Position numbers and translations under genes: made by a program. The notes beneath the pieces are model-generated. The model searched no databases. It worked only from the letters and a program-made list of their open reading frames with translations, and had not been told where the DNA came from. This document shows positions 4,482 through 37,207 of a stretch of DNA of 37,207 bases, one piece after another; positions within the stretch are counted from its first letter, which is position 1, and the number at the start of each line of letters is the position of its first letter. Location: the IMG/VR virus record IMGVR_UViG_3300031586_000012, positions 1 to 37,207 of that record. One strand, given 5' to 3'. This DNA is from a virus.

Positions 4482-7400
4482 TCCTCGCCTCCGGTTTTTG
4501 TTTTTACGGATACATCGTAATATGGCTTCGCTTCCATAGAAACTTCAAAGTAGGGCTTTGCCTCCATGGACACATCGAAGTAATTCCTGGTGAATAGCCT
4601 GATTAGAAATGTTTTTGCCTGGACAATAATGCCCGTGACTGTCAATCCCAGCAGCGCGACAGCGCTTCGCGTAATTGCGATTGTCCTACTACCAATACCC
4701 TTGAGCCCTAGCAGAGCAGTATCAGCTCTTGTGAAAGCCAATACACGGCTGCTAGTAGTCTTTAATCCTAACAAGGCTGTATTAGCTCTAGCCAGAGCCA
4801 ATGACCTCGTTCCCATAGCCACCAGTCCGAGATAGGCAATGCCAGTCCTGTAATAATGTTCAGCAGTATAATAGATGCCAGTAACTTTAAGCCCTAGATA
4901 TGCTAAGGCTGAACGACTCAAAGATATAGCTCTTGAACCTGTAACTGTTAAACCAAGATAGGCAATGCCAGTCCTGATGTAATGCTTGACGGTGGACATT
5001 ATGCCCGTGGCTTTCAGTCCTAGCAAAGCTACCTTAGCTCTAGTAATGCTTATAGTTCTATTGGCTGTAGTCTTCAGCCCAAGCATTGCAGTGTCCACTC
5101 TGGCAAGCGAGATTGACTTGTTAGCAGTAGTAAGCAATCCTAGCAATGCTGTCTTGCTACGACTCAGGTGTAATGCCCTTGAGCCTGTGCCAAGTAAACC
5201 GAGCAGCGCAATCTTGGAGCGGGTAATGGCTATTGCCCTTGAGCCTACAATTTTCAGCCCAAGCAAGGCAGTCTTGGAGCGAGTAAGTGCGACCGCTCTT
5301 GTGGCTGTGGTTTTCAAGCCTAGAAGAGCCGTGTTTGTCCTCGTATAACTACGAAATCTGCTGGCTATGCCCTTCAATCCCAATAAAGCAATATCCAGCC
5401 TGCTTAGAGCAAGTGCCCTGCTTCCAATACTCTTCAAACCCAGTAAAGCGGTATCGCTTCTACCAAGAACCAATGACCTTGAGCCAGTTGATAGGAGACC
5501 TAATAAGGCTGTTCCCACTCTTCCATAATGACCACTTATCAGGCATCCCCACTCCTCAAACATAAAGTCCCTAGTGCTGCTGGAAGACCAATTTTCCCCA
5601 CCATCAATGCTGTATTCAGCATTTCCACCACTATAAGTTGGAGAGCTATCGTCCATTCTCCATCCTACATGATTAGTACCATTACCATCTAAAGCTCTTA
5701 CTACAATGGCATACTTTGTGCTTCCAGATAAGCTATAGCCATCGCCAATTATAATTTCTCGCCACTCACCATCAGTATCAGTTGTTAAAGTATTGCCATT
5801 CGTAGTTCCAGAACAGAGGTCTTCACCAGTAGGATGTCCGTTTCCATCAGTGGCTTTTATGCTAACTGTAATTGTTCCTGGACTTAGTGTGCGATATATT
5901 TTCAATTTAACAGATATAATTTTATGTGATTCTGAGGGGGTAAATGTCTGTGCCTGCCAAAGGTCATCATGTATATAAAGAACAGCATCATCACCAGTTT
6001 TGTAATACTCACATTTCCTACACAATAAACTAATAGCCTTCAGCCCTAGCAGCGCCGTCTTCACCCTGCTGATGGCAATGCTCCTGCTGGCAGTTGCCTT
6101 GAGTCCAAGTAAAGCTGTCTTGGTTCTGAGATAAGAAGCTGCCCTTGTCGCAGTGGGAAGAAGTCCTAGAAGTGCTGTGTCAGTCCTGGCCAGAGCAAAG
6201 CCCCTTGACCCACTTCCCAGCAAGCCTAGAAGGGCCGTGCCTGAGCGTTCGTAGTGTTCTCCTGCTGTATAAGTAACTACCAGCTTGGGTTTATATCCTT
6301 CACCTTGTTCTGCATAGTAACCAATAGCGTAAGAACGCAGACTAGGGTCAGTAGCATCAGAGAAATCATTATTAGGTCTCGTTCCCAGTTTAGTGATGCT
6401 TGTCTTGGATATTGCTGCTCTGCCAGCAGCGTTCAAAGTGAAATCGTGATAGGCTGCACTCCCAATGAATGTTCCTAAATCGTATGCAGTATCAAGGAAC
6501 TTTGTCGTTCCAAATTGGTCATAGTCGGCTGCTATAACTGCCGTATTTGTGGCTGGGGTAGAAGCAACTACTTGAATATCTGCTGGGTATGTAGTTTCAT
6601 TATTAAGCCCTTGATTTTTAGAGTAAAGTGAGAAAACAGCAGCCGAAATCGTTGCACCATCGGGCAGTCCAGAGGTATCAAATAAGAAAGGACATCTTGA
6701 TATTGAATGAGTACCGCCCCCAGAACTGGGGTCTTCACCCTGGCATACAACATCAGATGCTCCTGAATCACCTGCTCCATCCCCTGTTGCTTTTGCCCTT
6801 TGAGTAGCCCATGCCACAGGAGTAGCTGGAGATACATAAGTTCTCCCATCAACACTTGTTGTTTCTTCGTGAGCATCGGGATAGAAGGTTTCAGGAGACT
6901 CGCATATTGTTAGAGGATAGCCAAAAGGCGGATTATCAAATATACTGGCAGGAATTAACTCCTCGCTATCACTGATTCCGTATTGCCCTAACCGAAGTTT
7001 GAAATCTCCCTGTTGGTCATAATGGATTCTTACTTCACCTTTAGGATTCTGCTCAAATACCCAAGTGCCAAGTATCCTACCCTCGATGAGCCTCAATCTC
7101 CGCTTGCAGATGCCGTAGTCCCATTCAAGGACATTGTTCTGGTAGTTCTCATTGGTGGGGTCAACCGCCAGTAATGTTTCCTTGCCACAGGATGCCTCTT
7201 TGCCGTCAAGGTAAAGTTGGGGAGTATATGTTAGATAATCGCCCTTTCGCTTCCCTGTAGGCTGGTCATTGATGCAGATTATGGTAACAGCCTTGCCTGA
7301 TACCTGAGCCTGAAACTGGTTTACCTTTGAGACATAGGTTGAGTCTTTCTTCTCCCAGCCAACTTCAACCTTAACGCCATCAGCATTGACCATCGGCAAA

Positions 7401-11173: not shown

Positions 11174-11515
11174 TTATGGGATTAAATCTTCTAGTCTATT
11201 TACTAATTCCTCGGTGGCTTCATATATTTCACCTGACGAAGCATGGCGATAACGCCCATTTTGCTCCAATCTGCTTACAAGTAAGTGTATCGCCTCATGC
11301 TTGGCAGTGCGCTTAATATCCTTGAAGGGTTTATCTTTGTCGGGCAGCTCACTGTTTAGTGTTACAGTAGCTACCATGTTACCTTGATCAACAGAAAGAG
11401 TGGCAAAATAACCCTCTTCTGGCTCATACTTGAAATAAACCTTATAGCCAGTTAAGCCAAATACCTTCTGCCATCTTTTGAACTCGCTTTGGAATAACTC
11501 AAAGTCTGCATCCAT
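11174..11515 (-). CDS. Metallopeptidase-like protein with HExxH motif
   Basis: A 113-residue protein with H73-E-A-I-H77, the zinc-binding and catalytic motif of gluzincin/SprT-like peptidases, and a later EIYEATEELV that could give the third ligand. The N-terminal half is a small alpha/beta unit. ATG at 11515 overlaps the stop of the giant virion gene (TGATG); a GTG at 11518 is the alternative. It lies between the ejection-type protein and the scaffold, where head maturation proteases often sit, but those are usually serine or ClpP-like, so a role in maturation is only a suggestion. Confidence 0.65.
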   Translation of the reverse strand: MDADFELFQSEFKRWQKVFGLTGYKVYFKYEPEEGYFATLSVDQGNMVATVTLNSELPDKDKPFKDIKRTAKHEAIHLLVSRLEQNGRYRHASSGEIYEATEELVNRLEDLIP

Positions 11516-14500
11516 CACTTAAATAGTTCCTTAAACCCCTCCACTTGTGCCAGCTCTTCCCAGGGAGTCAGTTCATGTTCAGCTTCAGGATTTCCCCTGT
11601 CACCCACAAGTTTAGATACTTTGCCAGTCAATAGCATCCATTGGTCAAGTTCAGGATATTTAGCCCTGAAATCTAATCTATGTTGTCCTTTATCTTCTTT
11701 TAGATATTCCTTGTACAAGTTCCATACTTCTTTTGTCGGTACTTTGCTGAAGTCCTTTGACTGATTCCCCTGCACTCCTAGCCACACATCCCGGTAGTAA
11801 TCTACATGGTCCATGAAGAACCACTCTTGCTCATAGCCAGCAGTGGGAAGTTCGTAATATTCCACATAGAGGTCTATGTATTTCTCGGGTACTCCCACAT
11901 CATAGGCTTGAACTCTGTATCGAGCTTCCTTGAAAGTCATGCCGCCCCTTTCAATGTCCTCAAGACCTGCCCTCATATTCTCAATAGCTTTCGGAGCCAT
12001 GCCGCCGGTATCATCCCATTTATCAAACTCGTCAAGGAATTGCTGGTAAATCTTATCCCTGGCCAACGGTTTCACTGTAGATTTATCTATAAGTGGGTGA
12101 TTCCCTATTTCCGAATCTGTATACTCTTTGTAGAAGTCTGGATTTTCTAATAGGTATCTCTCGCGCCAGCTTCCCCACAATGGCTGTGCCGAATACTCGA
12201 CAAATGCAGGCCAGTTGCTTTCGGAATAACCCTGGCTATAGGCTTCTTTTGTATAATATGCCTTGCCGAAGGTGGTCATATCTTCGTTTTCATCGAATAA
12301 CAGTCCATGTCTGGCCGTCGCCCTGTCGTCATCATCTGAAATATAATCGTCATTGTCTGGAGTATCGTCTCCATAAGCCTCATATAAATCGAACTGTTCC
12401 CTATTAGCAACTTGTAGTTCAAGCAAGGCTAAGGGGGTATCAGATAACTTTAGCCCACGCCATTCTGCGTAAGATTGGACTCCTGCTTCTTTAGCAGCAA
12501 TATCATCCTTGAGTAAAAGTAATTGAGCTTCCCAACTACCATGCTTACCTTCTGAAACAAAGTTTTCATAGGCAAAGTGTGTCTCTAAAGAGCCTTCAGG
12601 TGGTAGAGTCATTGGTGGTATGGCATCAGCAGGTATATCCAGTGTCTTGAGTAGCCCCTTAAATTGATTGTAGGCTTCAAGGGTGAGGAGCTTTGCCTTT
12701 TCACCTAAAGCTAAAGCTAACCGGGCATTATCCATCGGGTTAGCTTTCAGCCATTCGTCTCTGGGGTTAATCCTTAGCTCCGAATGGCTATCAAGGAAGG
12801 CATCCTTATCATCTGATTCAAGATATTTGACAAGCACCTCATATTGCTGCCTGCTTACATTCCCCAGATAGGCTTTAGGATAGAGTGTGTCAAATTCTTT
12901 TAATTGGGCAAGGTTGGTTATCCTTTCCCTAGCCTTCCACTGCTGATAGTAATTGACTATTGTATCGTCATTGTCTTCCGTGTTTATTTTATAGAGTGCA
13001 ATGTTCGGGAGTATATCAGCCTTTGACTGAGCTATTTCATATTCAGCCCACGCCTTGCTTTCCTTTGATGCTGCTGGGTTATCTAGAACATCCTGTGGCA
13101 AGACATTGCTATAAACATTCCCAATATCTCTGAACCAATCAATGGTAGTGTAGAGGTTTAACTCCCGTTCCGATAATGGTTTATCTTCTTGCCCCTCCTT
13201 GACTTCACCAAGTTTCAAGTTTAGGTCTTCCACCTTCTGCTCTGCATTCTTGGCAGGGGGTTGTAGTGCCCACTGGCTGAAGAGGAAATCCTTTATGTTA
13301 ATATCTTCTCCCTCTTGCAGCTTTGTCCTGATACCCTTTTCAACCTGAACCAGATACGGGGTAGGCCATCCGGTTATCTGTCCAGCCGCTTTCGCTAAAT
13401 ACTCTACAAGAGCCGCTACATCATCGAGGCTTATATCTTTATAAGGGTCTTGTCCCTGACCGATTAACTTCTTAGCCTTGAGAAAGATATTTCTCAAGTC
13501 ATCCGCCGTCTGTGCAACCGGACTGACTTGGTAATCAAATGGCTCGTTAGTCAGCCATCCCCAGATTGACTGAACCAACTGTCCACCAATCAGTATAAAA
13601 TTCAGCGGCCCAAGAATACCAGCCCTAGCCTGTCTTTCAGGCTTCCACTGGAAGGCATCGGCAATAAACTGAAACATCATAGGCAGAAGCACCCATGCCA
13701 AAAGGATAGTCCCTGCTGCCTTTGTCCTACTTCCTCTGCCATATTTGAAGTTGCGTAAATTGTCCCCAACCATTCTGAAGTATTTGTTTGGCTGGTTCTG
13801 GAACATAGTCATTAGCTTGAGCCATGATCCACCATTCTGAATAGCCGACAGTGTATCAATGCCAAAACTAGGTTGTGTTCTATTTGTAAGGTCTTCGGCA
13901 GCAACTATAGCCTCAGTCTGTGACAGTCCCTTATTTAGTCCATCTCTATATTTAGCCCACATACCTTGAGTGACTGCGAAGGTGTCACCAAGCCTAATTT
14001 GAAGCATAAACCAATTTTTTATACTTCCCCGACCAGCTATTTCTTTGTTTCCATGCTGTGCAAGAGCAGCCGCAATATCTCGTTCAAACCCCGCCTGTAT
14101 CCTCGCTCTGAATCCTTCGGAGTTCTTATAGAGAAACTTGAAATGGTCAATCGGTGATGTCCAGAAATTCGCAATACCGGAGACAAAACCCGTCACACCC
14201 ATCTCTTGATCGGAAACATAGGCGAACAGAGATGGTATCTGCTTCAATGCGATAACTGGCTTAATAGCCAGGATTGACCTAGTAAAGTTCCTTCTGAGCC
14301 AATCAGCGATCCTATTGGTAGTCGCTGTCTCAATGCCACCCCTTGCCATTTGGTTCATAAACTTATCAATTAACTGAACGATACCCCGCCCGTGATATTG
14401 CTCTATCGCCTGTTTTATCTCTGTGTTGCCAAAGACACGGCGCATATCCCTCATGGTGGTAGCCCACGCCTTGAAGTGCTCCATCTGTTCTATGTGGTTC

Positions 14501-17500
14501 GAGAGTATTTGCGTGGCTCCATTGAACTTGAGAGGTCGTATGTTCCTCTGCCTTGCCTTCAGACTACCATTGAGAACCGAGGCATATTGAGCGGCATCCT
14601 GAAAGGTTAAAATACTCTCCGTTATATCAGCCTCAAAATCCCGCCTGATAGGTGAATACCGAGGGTTATGAGGCATATCTACATTGTAAAGCTCCTGATA
14701 TATCGGGTTTATTGTTTTGTAATAATCCTCATAAAACTTGAAGAATGAATCTGTCAACTTCTTTTCCTCGGCAGTCAGGTTGTTCTCTATAGAATTCCTG
14801 AACTCCATTGACCAGCCCATGCCGGTAGTAAAGGTGTTATTAAGAGTCGGGTCTTGCATCTGCATATACTTGGCGAGCATCTCATTTCTGGTCATCTTGA
14901 TAGTAACTGTAGTAGCTCCAGGGTGATTAGCGATATAATCGGCAGTCAGTTCAAAGGTGCCGAGATTAACTTCCTCATCAAGTCCATTAAGAACTTGGTT
15001 AATAGCACGACCACCCTTGACCCCGAATACTTCACCAACCACATCCTTGACTTTGGCATAGGCTTCTTTAGTTCCAATGAACTGCCTATTGGTTGCACGG
15101 TGAACTTGAGATACAAACTTGCTAATTTCACTCTGGTAGGGTCCAGAGGTAGTATCGAACTTGCTTAGTTTGTCAGCCAGATTATCGATACCATACTGCC
15201 AGTTGACAAAGGTATCTACCCATCCGGGCTTGGCCTCCAGTCCCTTCCCTGGTACAGCCCCGATACCTGTCTTTAATCCCTTCCCGCCAGTAAGTATATT
15301 AGAAATATCTGCGCTAACAGCCTTGATTTTCTCATTAGCAATCTCCTGTTTTGCCTGGCGTTCAGACCTCCCTATGGCTTCAAGAGTCCTGATATAATTC
15401 AGTAGGTTAGCCAACTCCTCTGAAGACATACCATCTATGCCGGCGAAGTTAAGAGCTTCATTAGCTTTGAACATTTCCTCATAAGACAACTCCCCTGATT
15501 CGTATGCCCTGATATTCGTGACAATCTTCTCCCTGGCAGTATCTCTGTCAAGTTCCAGGTTGTGATTGAGAACATCAAATAGCCTCTGTGTCTCAGGTGT
15601 GAATTTACCTTTAAGGATATGATCTTTGATTTGCGCCCTTGCTTTCTTGAGTTCCGCTCTAATTTCAGTCTTGAGAACTTTCTGGGCATTGTTTTCAGCA
15701 AATTCCATAACACGTGTCATCAATACCGTCAACTTTGTATCCGTCTTAACTCTGGCAACCGCAGATATGAATTTACCCCTGGCCTCCATCGGGAGGTTCT
15801 CTTTCACAAATTTAGCCAATGCAGCCTTAGTCTCATCAGCAGTCTTCCGTTTGCTCCACCATTCCTGATACATCCTGCCAAGCCCCTCTAACTGCCGTCC
15901 GGTTTTGACCTCTATTGGCTCAACTGGCATCTCTACTTCTGGCATACCAGCTTCGGCTTTGGGGATTGTAACCTCTGGGGTAATAGCTTCAGGTGTAACT
16001 TCTTCAGGGACAATCTGCTGCTTCATGTGCTCAACAACAACCGCTTCCGCCTCCGTCTTCGGTTTAATCTGCTCAAAGGTGATTTCTTTCTCAACTCCTT
16101 TAGCAGCATCTTCAACTACCTTTTCCAGCTCGGGATTTTGCTCTACCACATTATCAAGTGCCTTTTGTGTGGCCACATCCTCTGACAATCCCTGAGAGAC
16201 AAAATCCTCTTTGCTTTTATCAAATTGAGCCTTCTGCTCTGAATTAAGCTGCGGAATTACCCTGTTCTGTATTCTGACGATTATATCTCCGCCAGCACCC
16301 ATGCCGAGACCGGCAATCGCACCGAGCGAAAAGACTAACTGCATATCGGGATCCTGTAGCATCTCTGCAAGCCCACGCTCATCACCCATAGCTTGCTTTA
16401 GAATCATCTCCTGATAAACTTCCTCTCCACCTTCAGTTAGCCCGGTGAAGAATAACTTACCGCCTATCTTAGCGGTAGTAACCAACCCTCTTGTCACCGC
16501 TCCGGCAGCCGCTTTGCCAACTGGTGTAGGCATAAATGCAACTGCAAGTTGGAGGGCATCCAATCCAGCTAATGTGAGATTCCTTCTGAATACCTCGTCA
16601 GCTACTTGTTCTGCCTCTTCATGCGAAAGCCCCCTTGCTCTAGCTTCATCATAGGCTCCACCAGCTTCCAATGCCGATTCAATAGGTCGGCTAAGGGCAG
16701 CACCGCCAACACCAGTTATGACTGCTCTACCCACAGCCCCTAACCCCACTCTGGCAGCTATTGAGCCGGCTAAACTATAAGCACCGAGAGCAGGAACTGC
16801 CAAAAGCATCAAGGTTGGCAACATCCTCACGCCATAAGTAGCATAAAACTGAGGATTAAATAGCTGCTTCCAAGTAAACTCATCAGGTTCAAATGGTATA
16901 GGCGCAGCCTGAACCTGCATATATTTTGCAAACGTAGTTATCTTCTCTCCTATTCCCTCCGCACCACACCACTTAAAAATACCTCCAACGTTGGCTACCA
17001 AATCGCCAACACCAGCAGTAAAGGTTCCCCATTTTCCTCGTTCTACTTCTCTGGCAGCCTCTGCCTCTACAATTAAAGCACTGGGATTGAAGTAATCGCT
17101 TAGTTGTTGCTCTGTAATATCGGGCCACAATTGTCTTACTAGCCTTTCTGTAGCCTCATTCCTACCCTCGCCAATAAGGGAAGCCCTTAATGCTTGGGGG
17201 TTATCACCAAAGTATTGCACCATCGTGTCAATGTTAGTCTCCGTTACTGGCTTTAGAGCATCTATCAAATTCTGGCGTAACTCAGGACTCCCAATAGTGG
17301 GTGTAAAGAGTTCAGTTAACCATTCCTCTGTCACGCCCTCATACATTGTTCTAAGAAGCATCTCTATCTCCTCAGTCCTGCCAATCTCAAAGATGTCTTG
17401 CAGGAAGGCTTCGGGCTGAGATTGAGCATAAGCCAAAACCTCTGCAATATCCTGCTGTGGAAACACAGCCCCGAATACTTCCTCAGTCTCTAACCTCTGC

Positions 17501-18039
17501 CTCTCTCTTAAATCTACCCAATCAGCAACGCCTAATTCACCACCACTAGTTTGATATTCCTGATATTGTTCCCTGCCTGCTTCAGTCAAGTTTTCGATGG
17601 TTAATTCTGTTTGATAAAACAATTCGTCTGGAACTAATCCGCCCGTAGGCTCACTTAACATAGCCCGCATATCAGCTTCTGAAAGCCTATCACCAGATGG
17701 TGAAATGTAATAATTATCTTCTGTTATCTCCCACTTCTGAGGGGTTATAATGCTAGAAGTTAAGCCTCCATTACCCTCTATCGGGCTTAATTTGAGCATC
17801 GCTCCCTCTTGAAGTCCCAAGCCCATCTGTGCAGCTTCAGCAGCAGTAAAAAACAATGGCTGTGTCGGGAAGGTAGTTATTAGCCGTCTCTGAGCGACAG
17901 CTTGCGTCAACTGAGGATACATCTCACGGACATCAGCCAGGGAAGTACCATATTGTGTCAATAGGCGTTCAATCTCTAAGTCCTTTGACTTGCGGAATTT
18001 CTTTAGCAGGTCCTCTTCGTTTAGTGTAAATCCGTTCAT
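11515..18039 (-). CDS. Giant internal virion/ejection-type protein
   Basis: About 2,174 residues, 17% of the genome. The frame opens at GTG 18099, but ATG at 18039 overlaps the stop of the preceding 46-codon gene (ATGA) and follows GAGGGG, so I chose it. Visible parts: an acidic N-terminal 350 residues; small-residue-rich hydrophobic helices at about 405-470 and 563-580; a long Lys/Glu coiled region (about 650-900); helical region to 1,440; a strong membrane segment (AAGTILLAWVLLPMMFQF, about 1,441-1,463); then many repeat-like DNxxxY/WxxY helices. The layout resembles the large internal virion proteins, with polyvalent-protein-type regions, that are ejected with DNA. No lysozyme or polymerase motif was found. 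Confidence 0.6.
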   Translation of the reverse strand: MNGFTLNEEDLLKKFRKSKDLEIERLLTQYGTSLADVREMYPQLTQAVAQRRLITTFPTQPLFFTAAEAAQMGLGLQEGAMLKLSPIEGNGGLTSSIITPQKWEITEDNYYISPSGDRLSEADMRAMLSEPTGGLVPDELFYQTELTIENLTEAGREQYQEYQTSGGELGVADWVDLRERQRLETEEVFGAVFPQQDIAEVLAYAQSQPEAFLQDIFEIGRTEEIEMLLRTMYEGVTEEWLTELFTPTIGSPELRQNLIDALKPVTETNIDTMVQYFGDNPQALRASLIGEGRNEATERLVRQLWPDITEQQLSDYFNPSALIVEAEAAREVERGKWGTFTAGVGDLVANVGGIFKWCGAEGIGEKITTFAKYMQVQAAPIPFEPDEFTWKQLFNPQFYATYGVRMLPTLMLLAVPALGAYSLAGSIAARVGLGAVGRAVITGVGGAALSRPIESALEAGGAYDEARARGLSHEEAEQVADEVFRRNLTLAGLDALQLAVAFMPTPVGKAAAGAVTRGLVTTAKIGGKLFFTGLTEGGEEVYQEMILKQAMGDERGLAEMLQDPDMQLVFSLGAIAGLGMGAGGDIIVRIQNRVIPQLNSEQKAQFDKSKEDFVSQGLSEDVATQKALDNVVEQNPELEKVVEDAAKGVEKEITFEQIKPKTEAEAVVVEHMKQQIVPEEVTPEAITPEVTIPKAEAGMPEVEMPVEPIEVKTGRQLEGLGRMYQEWWSKRKTADETKAALAKFVKENLPMEARGKFISAVARVKTDTKLTVLMTRVMEFAENNAQKVLKTEIRAELKKARAQIKDHILKGKFTPETQRLFDVLNHNLELDRDTAREKIVTNIRAYESGELSYEEMFKANEALNFAGIDGMSSEELANLLNYIRTLEAIGRSERQAKQEIANEKIKAVSADISNILTGGKGLKTGIGAVPGKGLEAKPGWVDTFVNWQYGIDNLADKLSKFDTTSGPYQSEISKFVSQVHRATNRQFIGTKEAYAKVKDVVGEVFGVKGGRAINQVLNGLDEEVNLGTFELTADYIANHPGATTVTIKMTRNEMLAKYMQMQDPTLNNTFTTGMGWSMEFRNSIENNLTAEEKKLTDSFFKFYEDYYKTINPIYQELYNVDMPHNPRYSPIRRDFEADITESILTFQDAAQYASVLNGSLKARQRNIRPLKFNGATQILSNHIEQMEHFKAWATTMRDMRRVFGNTEIKQAIEQYHGRGIVQLIDKFMNQMARGGIETATTNRIADWLRRNFTRSILAIKPVIALKQIPSLFAYVSDQEMGVTGFVSGIANFWTSPIDHFKFLYKNSEGFRARIQAGFERDIAAALAQHGNKEIAGRGSIKNWFMLQIRLGDTFAVTQGMWAKYRDGLNKGLSQTEAIVAAEDLTNRTQPSFGIDTLSAIQNGGSWLKLMTMFQNQPNKYFRMVGDNLRNFKYGRGSRTKAAGTILLAWVLLPMMFQFIADAFQWKPERQARAGILGPLNFILIGGQLVQSIWGWLTNEPFDYQVSPVAQTADDLRNIFLKAKKLIGQGQDPYKDISLDDVAALVEYLAKAAGQITGWPTPYLVQVEKGIRTKLQEGEDINIKDFLFSQWALQPPAKNAEQKVEDLNLKLGEVKEGQEDKPLSERELNLYTTIDWFRDIGNVYSNVLPQDVLDNPAASKESKAWAEYEIAQSKADILPNIALYKINTEDNDDTIVNYYQQWKARERITNLAQLKEFDTLYPKAYLGNVSRQQYEVLVKYLESDDKDAFLDSHSELRINPRDEWLKANPMDNARLALALGEKAKLLTLEAYNQFKGLLKTLDIPADAIPPMTLPPEGSLETHFAYENFVSEGKHGSWEAQLLLLKDDIAAKEAGVQSYAEWRGLKLSDTPLALLELQVANREQFDLYEAYGDDTPDNDDYISDDDDRATARHGLLFDENEDMTTFGKAYYTKEAYSQGYSESNWPAFVEYSAQPLWGSWRERYLLENPDFYKEYTDSEIGNHPLIDKSTVKPLARDKIYQQFLDEFDKWDDTGGMAPKAIENMRAGLEDIERGGMTFKEARYRVQAYDVGVPEKYIDLYVEYYELPTAGYEQEWFFMDHVDYYRDVWLGVQGNQSKDFSKVPTKEVWNLYKEYLKEDKGQHRLDFRAKYPELDQWMLLTGKVSKLVGDRGNPEAEHELTPWEELAQVEGFKELFK

Positions 18040-18176
18040 GCGACCCCTCGCTTGAAGAGTATATGCCAGCAGAGTCTCCATCTTGCCGATAATGGCCACT
18101 TCTTGACTGCACTCACATACTCAAGGAAGTTTCTACGGCTATATTTTCTAATCTTTTTTGATACCCTAGCGTTCAT
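18036..18176 (-). CDS. 46-residue basic microprotein
   Basis: Starts MNARVSKKIRKYSRRNFLEY and ends with a Trp-rich helix (RWRLCWHILFKRG). Its start overlaps the stop of the preceding small gene (TTAATG) and its stop overlaps the ATG of the giant gene (ATGA). From memory, small basic proteins with a similar basic start and an LPxxxRxxxAWxILFK-like end occur in phage head modules. Function unknown; a membrane- or RNA-binding amphipathic peptide is possible. Confidence 0.6.
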   Translation of the reverse strand: MNARVSKKIRKYSRRNFLEYVSAVKKWPLSARWRLCWHILFKRGVA

Positions 18177-22716: not shown

Positions 22717-22943
22717 GTTACTACCTTATATACTCCAACCCAGAACCAGACCCAGGCTATAAAGCCTAGAACACGGCCGAAGTTATAGTAGTGATGCTCT
22801 GATTCGATGGCCTCTTTTAGTGCCTTAGATGGCTGATACCTCTTGACGAAGGGAAAGAATACATCACAGAAGCCCTCTACGAGAGCGTGCCATTCCGCCG
22901 GCGTATCAATAAAGGTATGAATCCACTTAAACGGTGGTATCAT
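22713..22943 (-). CDS. Small protein with C-terminal membrane segment
   Basis: A 76-residue protein: N-terminal amphipathic part (FKWIHTFIDTPAEWHALVEG), a charged middle and a C-terminal aromatic membrane helix (VLGFIAWVWFWVGVYKVV). The ATG at 22943 overlaps the previous stop (ATGA); a longer frame opens at 22979. With the next gene it forms a pair of small membrane proteins at the head of the late operon, a possible lysis (holin/pinholin) set, which is inference. Confidence 0.55.
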   Translation of the reverse strand: MIPPFKWIHTFIDTPAEWHALVEGFCDVFFPFVKRYQPSKALKEAIESEHHYYNFGRVLGFIAWVWFWVGVYKVVT

Positions 22944-23218
22944 TTCGCAATCTTGTTCACTATGTCCTGAGAAGCCCACCCATAGGTAAAGGCAAATACA
23001 AAGACATACTCACCCGAGACTGGGAAACTCGGCAGTATCAATATAGTGGCGATGAGGGCAACGACTAGGTTAAATACCAGCGTCCAAACGAATCTAGTTT
23101 CCCACTTGACTTGCTGCCCTGCCTTTTCTGCCGCGCTCTTCTTCTTCAGCCACGGCAATAAAGCCCTCAGAAAGCAACCTAAGAATATACCGAGTGCTAC
23201 GATGATTTCTGTCTCCAT
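22940..23218 (-). CDS. Small multi-TM membrane protein, first late gene
   Basis: A 92-residue protein with an N-terminal membrane helix (IIVALGIFLGCFLRALLPWL), a basic loop, and two further hydrophobic segments (VWTLVFNLVVALIATILIL and EYVFVFAFTYGWA). Size and three-helix topology are like class I holins. Start at ATG 23218; a GTG at 23245 would lie in the terminator stem. It is the first gene after the promoter-terminator cassette at 23232-23350. Confidence 0.55.
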   Translation of the reverse strand: METEIIVALGIFLGCFLRALLPWLKKKSAAEKAGQQVKWETRFVWTLVFNLVVALIATILILPSFPVSGEYVFVFAFTYGWASQDIVNKIAK

Positions 23219-23236
23219 GTTCACCCACTTAAATGG

Positions 23237-23255
23237 AAAAACCACCCGAAGGTGG
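23237..23255 (-). terminator. Second terminator hairpin of late leader
   Basis: Stem 23242-23246 with 23251-23255 (CCACC/GGTGG) with a TTCG tetraloop, followed on the minus strand by five T. A UUCG-type loop makes it stable. It sits about 20 bases before the first late start codon. Confidence 0.7.
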
Positions 23256-23265
23256 CTCTAAAAGC

Positions 23266-23285
23266 AAAAAACCCGCTTAAACGGG
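23266..23285 (-). terminator. First terminator hairpin of late leader
   Basis: A short GC stem (23272-23275 with 23282-23285, CCCG/CGGG) plus one wobble pair, then six T on the minus strand. It terminates either the upstream early operon or the short transcript from the promoter at 23321-23350. Confidence 0.65.
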
Positions 23286-23291
23286 CTGTCT

Positions 23292-23309
23292 GGGGCGTAA
23301 CTTAGCCCC
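23292..23309 (-). promoter_or_regulatory. Leader hairpin without U-run
   Basis: Inverted repeat 23292-23296 with 23305-23309 (GGGGC/GCCCC), 8-base loop. It would be the first structure at the 5' end of the late transcript, starting a few bases after the predicted start point near 23314. Possible antiterminator or nut-like signal. Confidence 0.45.
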
Positions 23310-23320
23310 GCGATGTCAAT

Positions 23321-23350
23321 AGGGTAGCACGAATAATAAACTTTTGTCAA
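23321..23350 (-). promoter_or_regulatory. Predicted late promoter
   Basis: Minus strand TTGACA (23350-23345), 18-base spacer, TACCCT (23326-23321; 3 of 6). The perfect -35 and weak -10 suggest a promoter that needs help or is weak. Expected start about 23314, followed within 80 bases by three hairpins. Confidence 0.5.
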
Positions 23351-23358
23351 GCCCATTT

Positions 23359-23793
23359 TTACGACATCTTTATCGCTTTTCTGTGGTATTTTCGGTCCTT
23401 CAACCAGTCCGAAAAATCTCTCTCTTTGAGGCTCCACCCTGCCACATAATACAAAGCATCCTTAGCATCATCGCTCAGATAGTGCATCTTCTCGCGATTC
23501 TTGCACTCTTCAGCAAGCAGTCTGCCTCTCCATTCTGTCTTTTTTAACCTACGATCCACCTCTGCTATGATAAGTGCTACTTTAGTGAAGGCTGCTCCTG
23601 TGACTGTTCTCCCACGCATCCCCCCCGGGGCTGTAGCATCCGGGACCGGCCACTGCCCACCATGGAGAATGTCGGCATACTTCAAGAGCCAGAAAGATTG
23701 CTGAGCACACCATCTTATCTCGCCATAATGATACCACTCTTTGCCAGGGCACCCCTTCCAGCTTCTACACTTCCGGCAATCGAGCTCAGCCAT
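23359..23793 (-). CDS. Cys-rich protein just before late operon; candidate late regulator
   Basis: A 144-residue protein with four Cys in the N-terminal 30 residues (C6, C9, C15, C29), likely a metal or Fe-S site, and a C-terminal helical, basic part (LSDDAKDALYYVAGWSLKER...WLKDRKYHRKAIK) that could bind nucleic acid. Not a family I can name. It is the last gene before the promoter-terminator cassette, the position of late antiterminators (Q, ArpU-like) in other phages. The ribosome site is weak. Confidence 0.5.
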   Translation of the reverse strand: MAELDCRKCRSWKGCPGKEWYHYGEIRWCAQQSFWLLKYADILHGGQWPVPDATAPGGMRGRTVTGAAFTKVALIIAEVDRRLKKTEWRGRLLAEECKNREKMHYLSDDAKDALYYVAGWSLKERDFSDWLKDRKYHRKAIKMS

Positions 23794-23843: not shown

Positions 23844-24242
23844 TCAAATTAGCTCCATAACTTTCTGCTTATATTCCTTACTGTGTTCATAGACATGACA
23901 TTTGTGGCAAAGAACTCGCAGATTGTATGGCATATTTAGGCGATGCCATGTTCTATCCTCACCATTTAGCGGAATAATGTGATGAACCTCCATGCCACTT
24001 CGTTCTGCCCAGCTTCCTTCGCCCAAAAGTGGCACATCCATACAACCACGCCCACAGCGTTGACACCTCTCGCCAGCCCGCTTAAATGCATCGTGGCTAG
24101 CAGTTTGCCAAAAGAATAGATGCTTATAAAATTCGGCACATTTATCAGAACAATAGACCCTGCGACTTTTAGGTAATTCACCACCGCACATGACACAGAT
24201 TCCCTGATTCTCATAGCCTGTGCAAACTACTTTGAGTTTCAT
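23844..24242 (-). CDS. HNH endonuclease
   Basis: A 132-residue protein. An N-terminal zinc ribbon (C16-x2-C19, C31-x3-C35) precedes a classic HNH fold: C60-x2-C63, EVHHIIPL (H87-H88), N107 in NLRVLCHKCH, with C112-x2-C115. HNH proteins near the terminase genes often cut DNA during packaging; free-standing homing nucleases look similar. ATG at 24242 overlaps the stop of the preceding gene (ATGA) and follows GGAAGAGAAAG. Confidence 0.88.
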   Translation of the reverse strand: MKLKVVCTGYENQGICVMCGGELPKSRRVYCSDKCAEFYKHLFFWQTASHDAFKRAGERCQRCGRGCMDVPLLGEGSWAERSGMEVHHIIPLNGEDRTWHRLNMPYNLRVLCHKCHVYEHSKEYKQKVMELI

Positions 24243-24445
24243 CTTTCTCTTCCCTTACTATCAATCGTATAATTAGCCTTCTGGCGCATCATCTTGTCTA
24301 TCTCCTGAAGGTCTTCGAGCTTGCCCTGAACTTCAATAGCCCGCTTCTTGCTACCTGGTGGTCTAAAGAAGCCATATCCGTGCTTCCTGTAGTATCGAGC
24401 TATCTTCCGCTTATTCTGTATTGATAGGGAATCCCATAGATTCAT
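24239..24445 (-). CDS. Small basic protein between LuxR-HTH and HNH genes
   Basis: A 68-residue protein (MNLWDSLSIQNKRKIARYYR) with a basic N-terminal helix pair, an RPPGSKKRAIEVQGKLEDL middle and a polar tail. ATG at 24445 overlaps the stop of the LuxR-type gene (TGATG). Not recognised. The start resembles short helical DNA-binding proteins, but no helix-turn-helix is clear. Confidence 0.55.
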   Translation of the reverse strand: MNLWDSLSIQNKRKIARYYRKHGYGFFRPPGSKKRAIEVQGKLEDLQEIDKMMRQKANYTIDSKGRER

Positions 24446-24678
24446 CAGAACCACCCCCTTCTCAAAGCGTAGGTAGTAGCGCCGACCCTGTTACGAACCC
24501 CTAGCTTCTGGTAGATATGCTGGACATGGTTTTTGACTGTCTGATGCGATATTCCCATGTGGCAGGCGATTTCCTTGTTCTGCCAGCCCCGGACCATATA
24601 GCGCAGAACCTCAGTCTCCCTTCTTGTGAGTGGTTTCCGTCTTATCCCCAGGACCCGCTCTAATAGCTTTCTTATCAT
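24445..24678 (-). CDS. LuxR/GerE-type HTH protein (single domain)
   Basis: A 77-residue transcription regulator made only of the LuxR C-terminal DNA-binding domain: PLTRRETEVLRYMVRGWQNK, IACHMGISHQTVKNHVQHIY and KLGVRNRVGATTYALRRGW cover all four helices of the family (residues 16-77). There is no receiver or sensor domain, so it must be controlled by its expression or by a partner. The ATG at 24678 lies 6 bases beyond the U-run of a terminator and has no Shine-Dalgarno sequence, so how it is expressed is unclear. It heads a small operon with the HNH gene and the Cys-rich protein before the late genes. Confidence 0.85.
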   Translation of the reverse strand: MIRKLLERVLGIRRKPLTRRETEVLRYMVRGWQNKEIACHMGISHQTVKNHVQHIYQKLGVRNRVGATTYALRRGWF

Positions 24679-35391: not shown

Positions 35392-35543
35392 TTCTCTACC
35401 CCCCACATAAGCCAGCAGCCATGCCTCGATAAGTCCTTTGCTATTTCCCCCAGGGTGAGGTTTCCGTACTCCTGGCAGAATAAGTCAAATAATGCAAAGG
35501 CTTGACACGCCTTCCCTACCACCGCTATAATTAATTTATTCAA
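35388..35543 (-). CDS. 51-residue small protein, TTG start
   Basis: MNKLIIAVVGKACQAFALFD..., first half hydrophobic (possible membrane or packing helix), second half LGEIAKDLSRHGCWLMWG. TTG at 35543 is preceded by AAGGAGTAAAGGAAA. Its stop overlaps the next ATG. Not recognised. Confidence 0.55.
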   Translation of the reverse strand: MNKLIIAVVGKACQAFALFDLFCQEYGNLTLGEIAKDLSRHGCWLMWGVEK

Positions 35544-35549
35544 TTTCCT

Positions 35550-35780
35550 TTACTCCTTCCCGGGGCCAGAAGTGATGAGGTCACTCCTGGTCCCTTTCTG
35601 TATTTGCTTATGGTTGCTCGACCTGCAACACAGCTTATAAAGCCTCAGTAGCTCAGTCCGATTATTAGAAGCTAAAATACTTGGGGTATCCTTGCCTCCA
35701 TTATTATTTTCTTGAGCCTGAAGCTCTTGCTGCCTTAGTTCGGCTAAGGTTGGATTTCGTGGTCTTCCACCTTTATTCAT
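35550..35780 (-). CDS. Small basic protein with GRPRNP motif
   Basis: A 76-residue protein starting MNKGGRPRNPTLAELRQQEL, where GRPRNP resembles an AT-hook-like or 'GRP' DNA-contact motif. The C-terminal half is polar (LASNNRTELLRLYKLCCRSS). ATG overlaps the stop of the DUF5658 gene (ATGA). Possibly DNA binding. Confidence 0.5.
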   Translation of the reverse strand: MNKGGRPRNPTLAELRQQELQAQENNNGGKDTPSILASNNRTELLRLYKLCCRSSNHKQIQKGTRSDLITSGPGKE

Positions 35781-36094
35781 AGTGCCAATCCAATCCCGTT
35801 AAATACGCAAACCCCGGTCATTCCGATTACTATGACCAGGAAAAGCATCCTAATCTGTCCCGGGTATTTATTCGCCAGTAGAAGAAGAAGCCAGGTGCAA
35901 ACCATCACCGCTCCAATCTTCACAGTCCAGAATAGCCCCATAGATTGCTGTTCAAGGACATATCTCATTGGCGGGTTTAACTCGTATCCACCCCTGCCGT
36001 CTAGGATATGAGTGAGTAAGCCATCAACCACATTCAGGATAATGAAGGCACTCGCTAAGCCTACCGGCCTTTCTAACTTGCTAATCTTTTCCAT
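35777..36094 (-). CDS. DUF5658-like integral membrane protein (copy 2)
   Basis: A 105-residue membrane protein with LNVVDGLLTHIL and GGYELNPPM, then two or three hydrophobic helices and a closing GVCVFNGIGLAL. This matches the DUF5658 pattern and the paralogue at 17-349. A GGGGGGAG sequence lies about 11 bases before the ATG. It is an early gene, unlike the other copy, which has its own promoter. Function unknown. Confidence 0.7.
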   Translation of the reverse strand: MEKISKLERPVGLASAFIILNVVDGLLTHILDGRGGYELNPPMRYVLEQQSMGLFWTVKIGAVMVCTWLLLLLANKYPGQIRMLFLVIVIGMTGVCVFNGIGLAL

Positions 36095-37080: not shown

Positions 37081-37207
37081 CTCGCCGTGCCTCTCATTAG
37101 TGGTATAGAAATTTAACCAAAACTATGCCATTGTATAAACAAACAATTGACATGAAAACTATTAAGCCAATAAATGCTATCTTTATTGGGCGGGGGTGCA
37201 TGGTTGC
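37081..37207. repeat. Terminal direct repeat, copy 2 (circular overlap)
   Basis: Exact second copy of bases 1-127. It should be removed when the sequence is circularised, because it duplicates the 3' end of the DUF5658 gene that starts at base 349. Confidence 0.95.

Follow-up and report, generated by a model that had tools for sequence, protein, structure and literature searches.

Where a promoter is followed at once by a stem-loop and two intrinsic terminators, and after these by the first gene of a late block, the question arises how transcription reaches that block and which factor would let it pass. What is known of late antitermination in molecular detail comes for the most part from the lambdoid phages that infect enterobacteria, with a few others. 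The arrangement analyzed here lies in a viral record 37,207 bases long, the whole of which is called the window and which carries an exact 127-bp direct terminal repeat (1-127 and 37081-37207); because of this repeat the record probably represents an entire genome, about 37.1 kb in size and circularly permuted or circular. A sequence-only reading had described a TTGACA-18-TACCCT promoter, a GC hairpin, two U-run terminators and the first late gene, and all of these were confirmed on the minus strand (Table 1), with the start of the late gene corrected from a GTG inside the second terminator, T2, to the ATG at 23218. Judged from the window and its relatives, the site is likely a late-transcription switch that acts by antitermination through an early-made factor, most likely the 144-aa protein encoded next to it.

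Location of the Probable Switch

The identified phage genes are carried on the minus strand. The early genes, starting from the right end, encode SbcC-like, RecT, DnaB_2 and VRR-NUC proteins, and the early block ends with a LuxR-type HTH gene, the 71-aa gene, an HNH gene and the 144-aa gene. On the 3' side of the switch follow a small membrane protein, a gene in the TerS position, TerL and the head genes including the portal and capsid genes. The switch is positioned at the border of early and late genes. The TerL relatives found in genome assemblies are mostly from Chloroflexota (35-49% identity), and the virus is a probable Chloroflexota phage. The first late gene has homologues in L004, L013 and L026 and is replaced elsewhere by other small membrane proteins; by position and hydrophobicity only its product is holin-like, and its matches to Pfam and PHROG holins are weak.

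Further observations concern the same genome. Within the head-gene block a 2194-aa protein is encoded (11515-18099, minus strand), whose only matches are PHROGs of unknown function. On either side of the terminal repeat is a gene for a small membrane protein (17-385 and 35777-36094, minus strand); the two proteins resemble each other in pattern and are possible paralogues.

Table 1. Elements of the putative switch and adjacent genes, with positions in the window.
Feature	Position	Strand	Remarks
71-aa protein of unknown function	24239..24454	-	usually just 5' of the 144-aa gene
144-aa protein, candidate antiterminator	23359..23793	-	Cys4 motif, helical, basic last helix
-35 element TTGACA	23345..23350	-	exact in 15/15 loci with a close 144-aa homologue
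Extended -10, TGC + TACCCT	23321..23329 (-10 proper 23326-23321)	-	18-bp spacer ending in TGC
-35-like TTGACA abutting the -10	23314..23319	-	place of the lambda TTGACT
Hairpin 1, GGGGC-TAAGTTAC-GCCCC (8-nt loop), no U-run	23292..23309	-	predicted RNA 5' end
Consensus-pause-like stretch GGCTAAGTTAC/G	23296..23307	-	predicted pause +18
Intrinsic terminator T1, GCCCG..CGGG-U6	about 23264..23287	-	equivalents in L003, L009, L020, L024, L053
Intrinsic terminator T2, GAGCCACC-UUCG-GGUGG-U5 (DNA GCCACC..GGTGG-T5)	about 23235..23258	-	
First late gene, small membrane protein	22940..23218	-	92 aa from ATG 23218

Conservation of the Promoter-Terminator Unit

The transcription start is predicted at about 23314 on the minus strand. 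By the E. coli standard the -10 hexamer scores 3/6 and is weak, because of which the promoter was missed by a generic consensus scan; for the minus strand from 23.3 down to 21.0 kb, the same scan gave no other sigma70-like site of at least 9/12. As promoter-like and terminator-like sites occur overall at about chance density in the scans, the single sequence is weak evidence, and the case for a switch is built on the exact -35 element, on how closely promoter and terminators are coupled and most of all on the comparison with relatives.

Searches with TerL, with the 144-aa protein and with the DNA pattern yielded 14 distinct viral loci with a close homologue of the 144-aa protein (L002, L003, L004, L006, L009, L013, L015, L017, L020, L022, L024, L025, L026, and L053) and the more distant locus L050. 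In the window and in 14/14 of these relatives the same unit was found, composed of TTGACA, TAnnnT at a spacing of 17-18 bp, hairpin 1, a terminator before the first late gene and the gene of a small membrane protein. The upstream, spacer and downstream sequences share a mean identity of only 30-36% among the 15 loci. The idea of a late promoter with the logic of the Q-dependent promoter of lambda thereby gains support from a unit of promoter, terminators and 144-aa gene that is conserved in 15 loci, and from its place at the early/late boundary. Among the TerL-related loci with enough upstream sequence, promoter and terminator are present in 7/7 with a homologue of the 144-aa protein vs 1/37 without (Fisher 2e-7, with counts uncorrected for relatedness). 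The sole exception among the 37, L084 (2565-2717), has the order promoter, terminator, small membrane protein without a recognizable 144-aa homologue, which suggests that the logic of the switch is wider than this protein family. Near the distant homologues of L079-L081 such a promoter was not found. In L013, L016/L017 and L024 the same switch and 144-aa gene were kept beside other or strongly diverged terminases, so that switch and gene appear to travel together, and in L003 and L013, where an extra gene separates the 144-aa gene from the promoter, promoter and terminators remain with the late genes.

These findings bear on the alternative that a TTGACA happens to stand near an ordinary pair of terminators at the end of an operon. 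Single consensus sites are indeed common, and such sites have about chance-level density overall, but 150 Markov shuffles of the window, searched on both strands, contained zero cases of TTGACA-17/18-TAnnnT with a terminator within 130 nt, the window itself contains only one, and the unit is conserved in 15/15 diverged loci, which makes chance a very improbable explanation.

Within the promoter, TAnnnT and the spacing of 17-18 bp are found in 15/15 loci, a TG two bases 5' of the -10 in 11/15 and a C at its fifth position in 11/15; the third and fourth bases are variable and the fifth is mostly C. The spacer contains no conserved motif beyond the extended -10 among the 15 loci, and no shared Q-binding motif is apparent, although the specificity of binding may not be the same from phage to phage. 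In phages of Gram-positive bacteria, late activators are carried between the VRR-NUC and terminase genes. The site in the window takes this same place, a LuxR-type HTH gene is nearby, and the -10 is unlike TATAAT in most loci, all of which would fit activation of the promoter in the manner of RinA/ArpU by the 144-aa protein or by the LuxR-type 77-aa protein, with leaky terminators trimming upstream transcripts. However, the exact -35 element and the extended -10 suggest independence of an activator, activation leaves unexplained why, in every relative, terminators separate the promoter from the gene, and the LuxR-type protein occurs in only 3/15 relatives tested; activation thus appears rather improbable. 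The protein in question, a stand-alone LuxR/GerE HTH protein (24445-24678, minus strand), is 86-91% identical in L002, L004 and L015, and as a general factor it was rejected on account of this narrow occurrence.

Terminators and the Predicted Short RNA

T2 ends about 16 nt 5' of the start codon of the first late gene. The region 23312-23225 folds with -33.9 kcal/mol (z -3.1), and the RNAs terminated at T1 and T2 would have about 48 and 75 nt, in agreement with the short RNA of about 50-80 bases that had been predicted for transcription without antitermination.

In four of the relatives hairpin 1 and the last terminator flank a tRNA-Met(CAU) gene (L002, about 4712-4787; L013, about 4777-4851; L017, about 488-563; L025, about 763-836), in which positions 1 and 72 are mismatched (A-C or U-C). 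L009 has a remnant of a tRNA-Met gene, apparently split by the terminator, and in L003 the tRNA-Met gene is located further 3' (5014-5086). The short terminated RNA might accordingly be the product proper, as a small RNA or as the tRNA-Met of these relatives, with the late genes being served by leakage or from elsewhere. Against this, most loci including the window are devoid of a tRNA and would yield only a poorly conserved RNA of about 50-75 nt, and because T2 ends so close to the start codon no room is left for another promoter; we regard this explanation as quite improbable.

Hairpin 1 as a Putative RNA Element

A stem of at least four pairs is present at the equivalent place, starting at about +0 to +9, in 15/15 loci. 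Its pairing is retained through compensatory changes in surroundings that are otherwise alike, e.g., GGGCAU/AUGCCC in L002 vs GGGCGU/ACGCCC in L004, GGCG/CGCC in L003 vs GGCA/UGCC in L024, and GGGCGA/UCGCCC in L020 vs L004. In the alignment 4/6 pairs show two-sided changes and the covariation score was reached by none of 500 shuffles and by none of the slid alignments, a result to be read with the relatedness of the loci, which inflates covariation; three sequences, including the window, are out of register by one, which therefore lowers the count of two-sided changes. It is this covariation that carries the claim, as fold z-scores of single loci are weak in about half of the loci. In the distant relative L050 no clear hairpin 1 was found, and a search of the locus against Rfam resulted in zero matches.

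The loop of hairpin 1 varies from 3 to 10 nt among the loci. A DNA palindrome serving as operator was rejected for this reason, the arms being 3 to 10 bases apart, and a loop of varying length is easier to reconcile with a stem in the RNA than with a DNA operator, whose half-sites would be a fixed distance apart. Candidate roles of the stem are a loading site, an aid to pausing or a protection of the mRNA 5' end.

The first of these roles leads to the proposal that the antitermination factor is loaded via the nascent RNA, with hairpin 1 acting like nut or put and binding either the 144-aa protein or RNA polymerase. The presence of the stem where the RNA is predicted to begin, seen in 15/15 loci, the pairing kept by two-sided changes at four pairs, the loop length and the basic C-terminal helix of the 144-aa protein are all in favor of it. 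On the other side, the lambda-like -35-like repeat points to loading from the DNA, a 5' hairpin may merely stabilize the mRNA, L050 is the exception mentioned above, and a single short stem compares poorly with the put site. The put RNA of HK022 binds RNA polymerase without the help of a phage protein. It acts on early genes, and its two long stems occupy about 70 nt (PMC9378689). Both put and the present locus combine terminators with a structured RNA where a phage transcript begins, but here one short stem is located 5' of T1, and this stem has no Rfam match. Loading through RNA is a possible but doubtful variant.

Elements Shared With the Late Promoter of Lambda

The lambda promoter pR' reads TTGACT-N17-TAAATT, overlapped by a further TTGACT and followed by AACGAT and GGGTTAATTCG. 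The TTGACT overlapping the -10 is what we take to be the -35-like element of lambda, which among the Q-dependent late promoters is known from lambda only. A -35-like sequence is needed by lambdaQ (PMC6606751). In the window a second TTGACA, which had gone unreported, matches the place of this lambda TTGACT and extends the likeness to lambda: it is exact in 8/16 loci including the window, has one mismatch in three more and reads TTGACT in L050, while shuffles of the same 16-nt stretches gave a mean of 0.07 and a maximum of 2 exact copies (2000 shuffles). As a second promoter this repeat was rejected since no -10 is located at the right distance, and the two TTGACA copies were also rejected as paired operator half-sites, as their spacing varies from about 27 to 36 bp.

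The pause consensus G-10/Y-1/G+1 is named in PMC4604602. In 12/16 loci it was found at about +13 to +19, where its signal cannot be fully separated from that of hairpin 1. For the -10-like sigma-pause element of the initial transcribed region, candidates exist in most loci at differing places and are absent from some, so that the cis elements known from lambda are, as far as can be read from the DNA, partly but not fully present.

With lambda pR'-tR' the locus shares the regulator gene immediately upstream, the TTGAC- of the -35, a second, -35-like TTGAC- that overlaps the -10 in lambda and abuts it here, a G-rich stretch followed by the Y/G pause consensus at about +16, the terminator before the late genes and a small membrane protein as the first late gene product, which in lambda is the holin. 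It differs in the distance of the terminator (at about 190 in lambda, here at about 48 and 75 nt), in the stem-loop at the RNA 5' end, in the inconsistent -10-like pause element, in the late block, which here leads straight to the terminase, and in the regulator, which is unrelated in sequence. The comparison supports a switch that would work like pR'-tR', through convergence or deep divergence. Phages 21 and 82 also share the promoter, the close terminator and the adjacent antiterminator among the early genes; however, the 144-aa family has no match to the models of Q21 and Q82 (PF06530 and PF06323), and the 6-bp direct repeat of the Q21 type was not recognized in the spacer. In Pseudomonas aeruginosa the antiterminator AlpA acts at PalpB, a promoter followed by the intrinsic terminator tB before the lysis genes (PMC9371919). 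The logic of promoter and intrinsic terminator is thus the same, whereas the ABE motif GGGACG was not seen in the spacer, and neither by sequence nor by fold does AlpA match the 144-aa protein.

The 144-aa Protein as Candidate Factor

The sequence-only reading had pointed to a Cys-rich 144-residue protein in the position of an antiterminator, and the relatives bear this out, as its gene (23793-23359), upstream of the switch, is kept beside it there. The homologues are 32-79% identical, and in nearly all relatives, as in the window, their gene is the direct upstream neighbor of the switch. The family has a helical body, a last helix that is basic and, within the first 30 residues, CxxC, C and C; the distant homologues lack these cysteines.

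Searches of Pfam, PHROGs and NCBIfam with the 144-aa family gave no significant match, and late activator families of the RinA/ArpU type were not among the Pfam, PHROG and NCBIfam matches of its members. The Q families PF03589, PF06530 and PF06323 had no match at E up to 10 with seven family members, hhalign of the family with lambda Q gave none, and the protein is, by sequence, outside the three Q families. In the PDB no match was found by sequence, and Foldseek/VIA searches with two AF2 models (pTM 0.70 and 0.79) gave no structural match; the model with pTM 0.79 is fair (pLDDT 82). A protein without such matches may still have the Q-like fold, in which an N-terminal ring is joined to a C-terminal helix-turn-helix. 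Taken together, sequence and fold searches detected no likeness to Q, N, P7 or AlpA proteins. No homologue was found in the 17 genomes holding TerL relatives or in 50,697 phage records, the latter meaning that the protein has no annotated or cultured relative there. The family is previously undescribed and is probably a new antiterminator family.

Q21, lambdaQ, Q82 and AlpA share their genome position and task and have no mutual sequence similarity (PMC7171158, PMC9371919). Since AlpA is unrelated in sequence to Q, the antitermination logic arose in several protein families, and a further unrelated family in the Q position is reasonable. Given an antitermination switch, we regard it as evenly balanced whether the 144-aa protein is the antiterminator. 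The co-conserved 71-aa protein, with a tblastn match in 10/16 loci (32-73% identity) and a similar ORF recognized by eye in L050, is the first candidate for an alternative or a partner.

Proposed Mechanism

From the promoter, the -35-like repeat, hairpin 1, the terminators, their order and their linkage to the 144-aa gene, all of which are recognizable in the DNA, we infer the constitutive use of the promoter, the efficiency of termination, antitermination itself, the identity of the factor and its loading route. The host RNA polymerase would use the promoter at 23350-23321 constantly, and T1 or T2 would stop the transcript when it is about 50-75 nt long, leaving the terminase, capsid and tail genes off. 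An early-made factor, for which the product of the neighboring 144-aa gene is the best candidate, would accumulate and board the polymerase near the promoter, while the polymerase stands over the region of the -35-like repeat, the pause sequence and hairpin 1. So modified, the polymerase would read through both terminators and along the late operon. The terminators may also halt early transcripts coming from upstream.

A more specific proposal, which we put forward tentatively, is that of a new antiterminator family of Chloroflexota phages combining a promoter of the lambda pR' type with loading at a 5'-terminal RNA hairpin. Such loading could, equally tentatively, be seen as a hybrid of the DNA-loaded mechanism of Q and the RNA-loaded mechanisms of N/nut or put. 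A conserved switch of promoter, hairpin and terminators with an unrelated candidate antiterminator, in phages whose terminase relatives indicate Chloroflexota as hosts, would mean that the late-gene logic of lambda including the -35-like repeat extends, or has re-evolved, far outside the lambdoid group, and the antiterminator would be a compact new one of about 144 residues.

Other Promoter-Like Sites in the Window

Two further promoter-like sites were observed. On the plus strand at 35502-35531 a TTGACA-18-TATAAT promoter (12/12) faces against the early genes and is followed by the hairpin CCAGAAGTGATGAGGTCACTCCTGG, which makes an antisense RNA possible. On the minus strand a TTGACA-17-TAATCT with the TG of an extended -10 (36830-36802) is located 5' of a small HTH gene and is a probable early promoter; its -10 has a C at position 5 (TAnnCT), as in the late promoters, which is perhaps a preference of the host.
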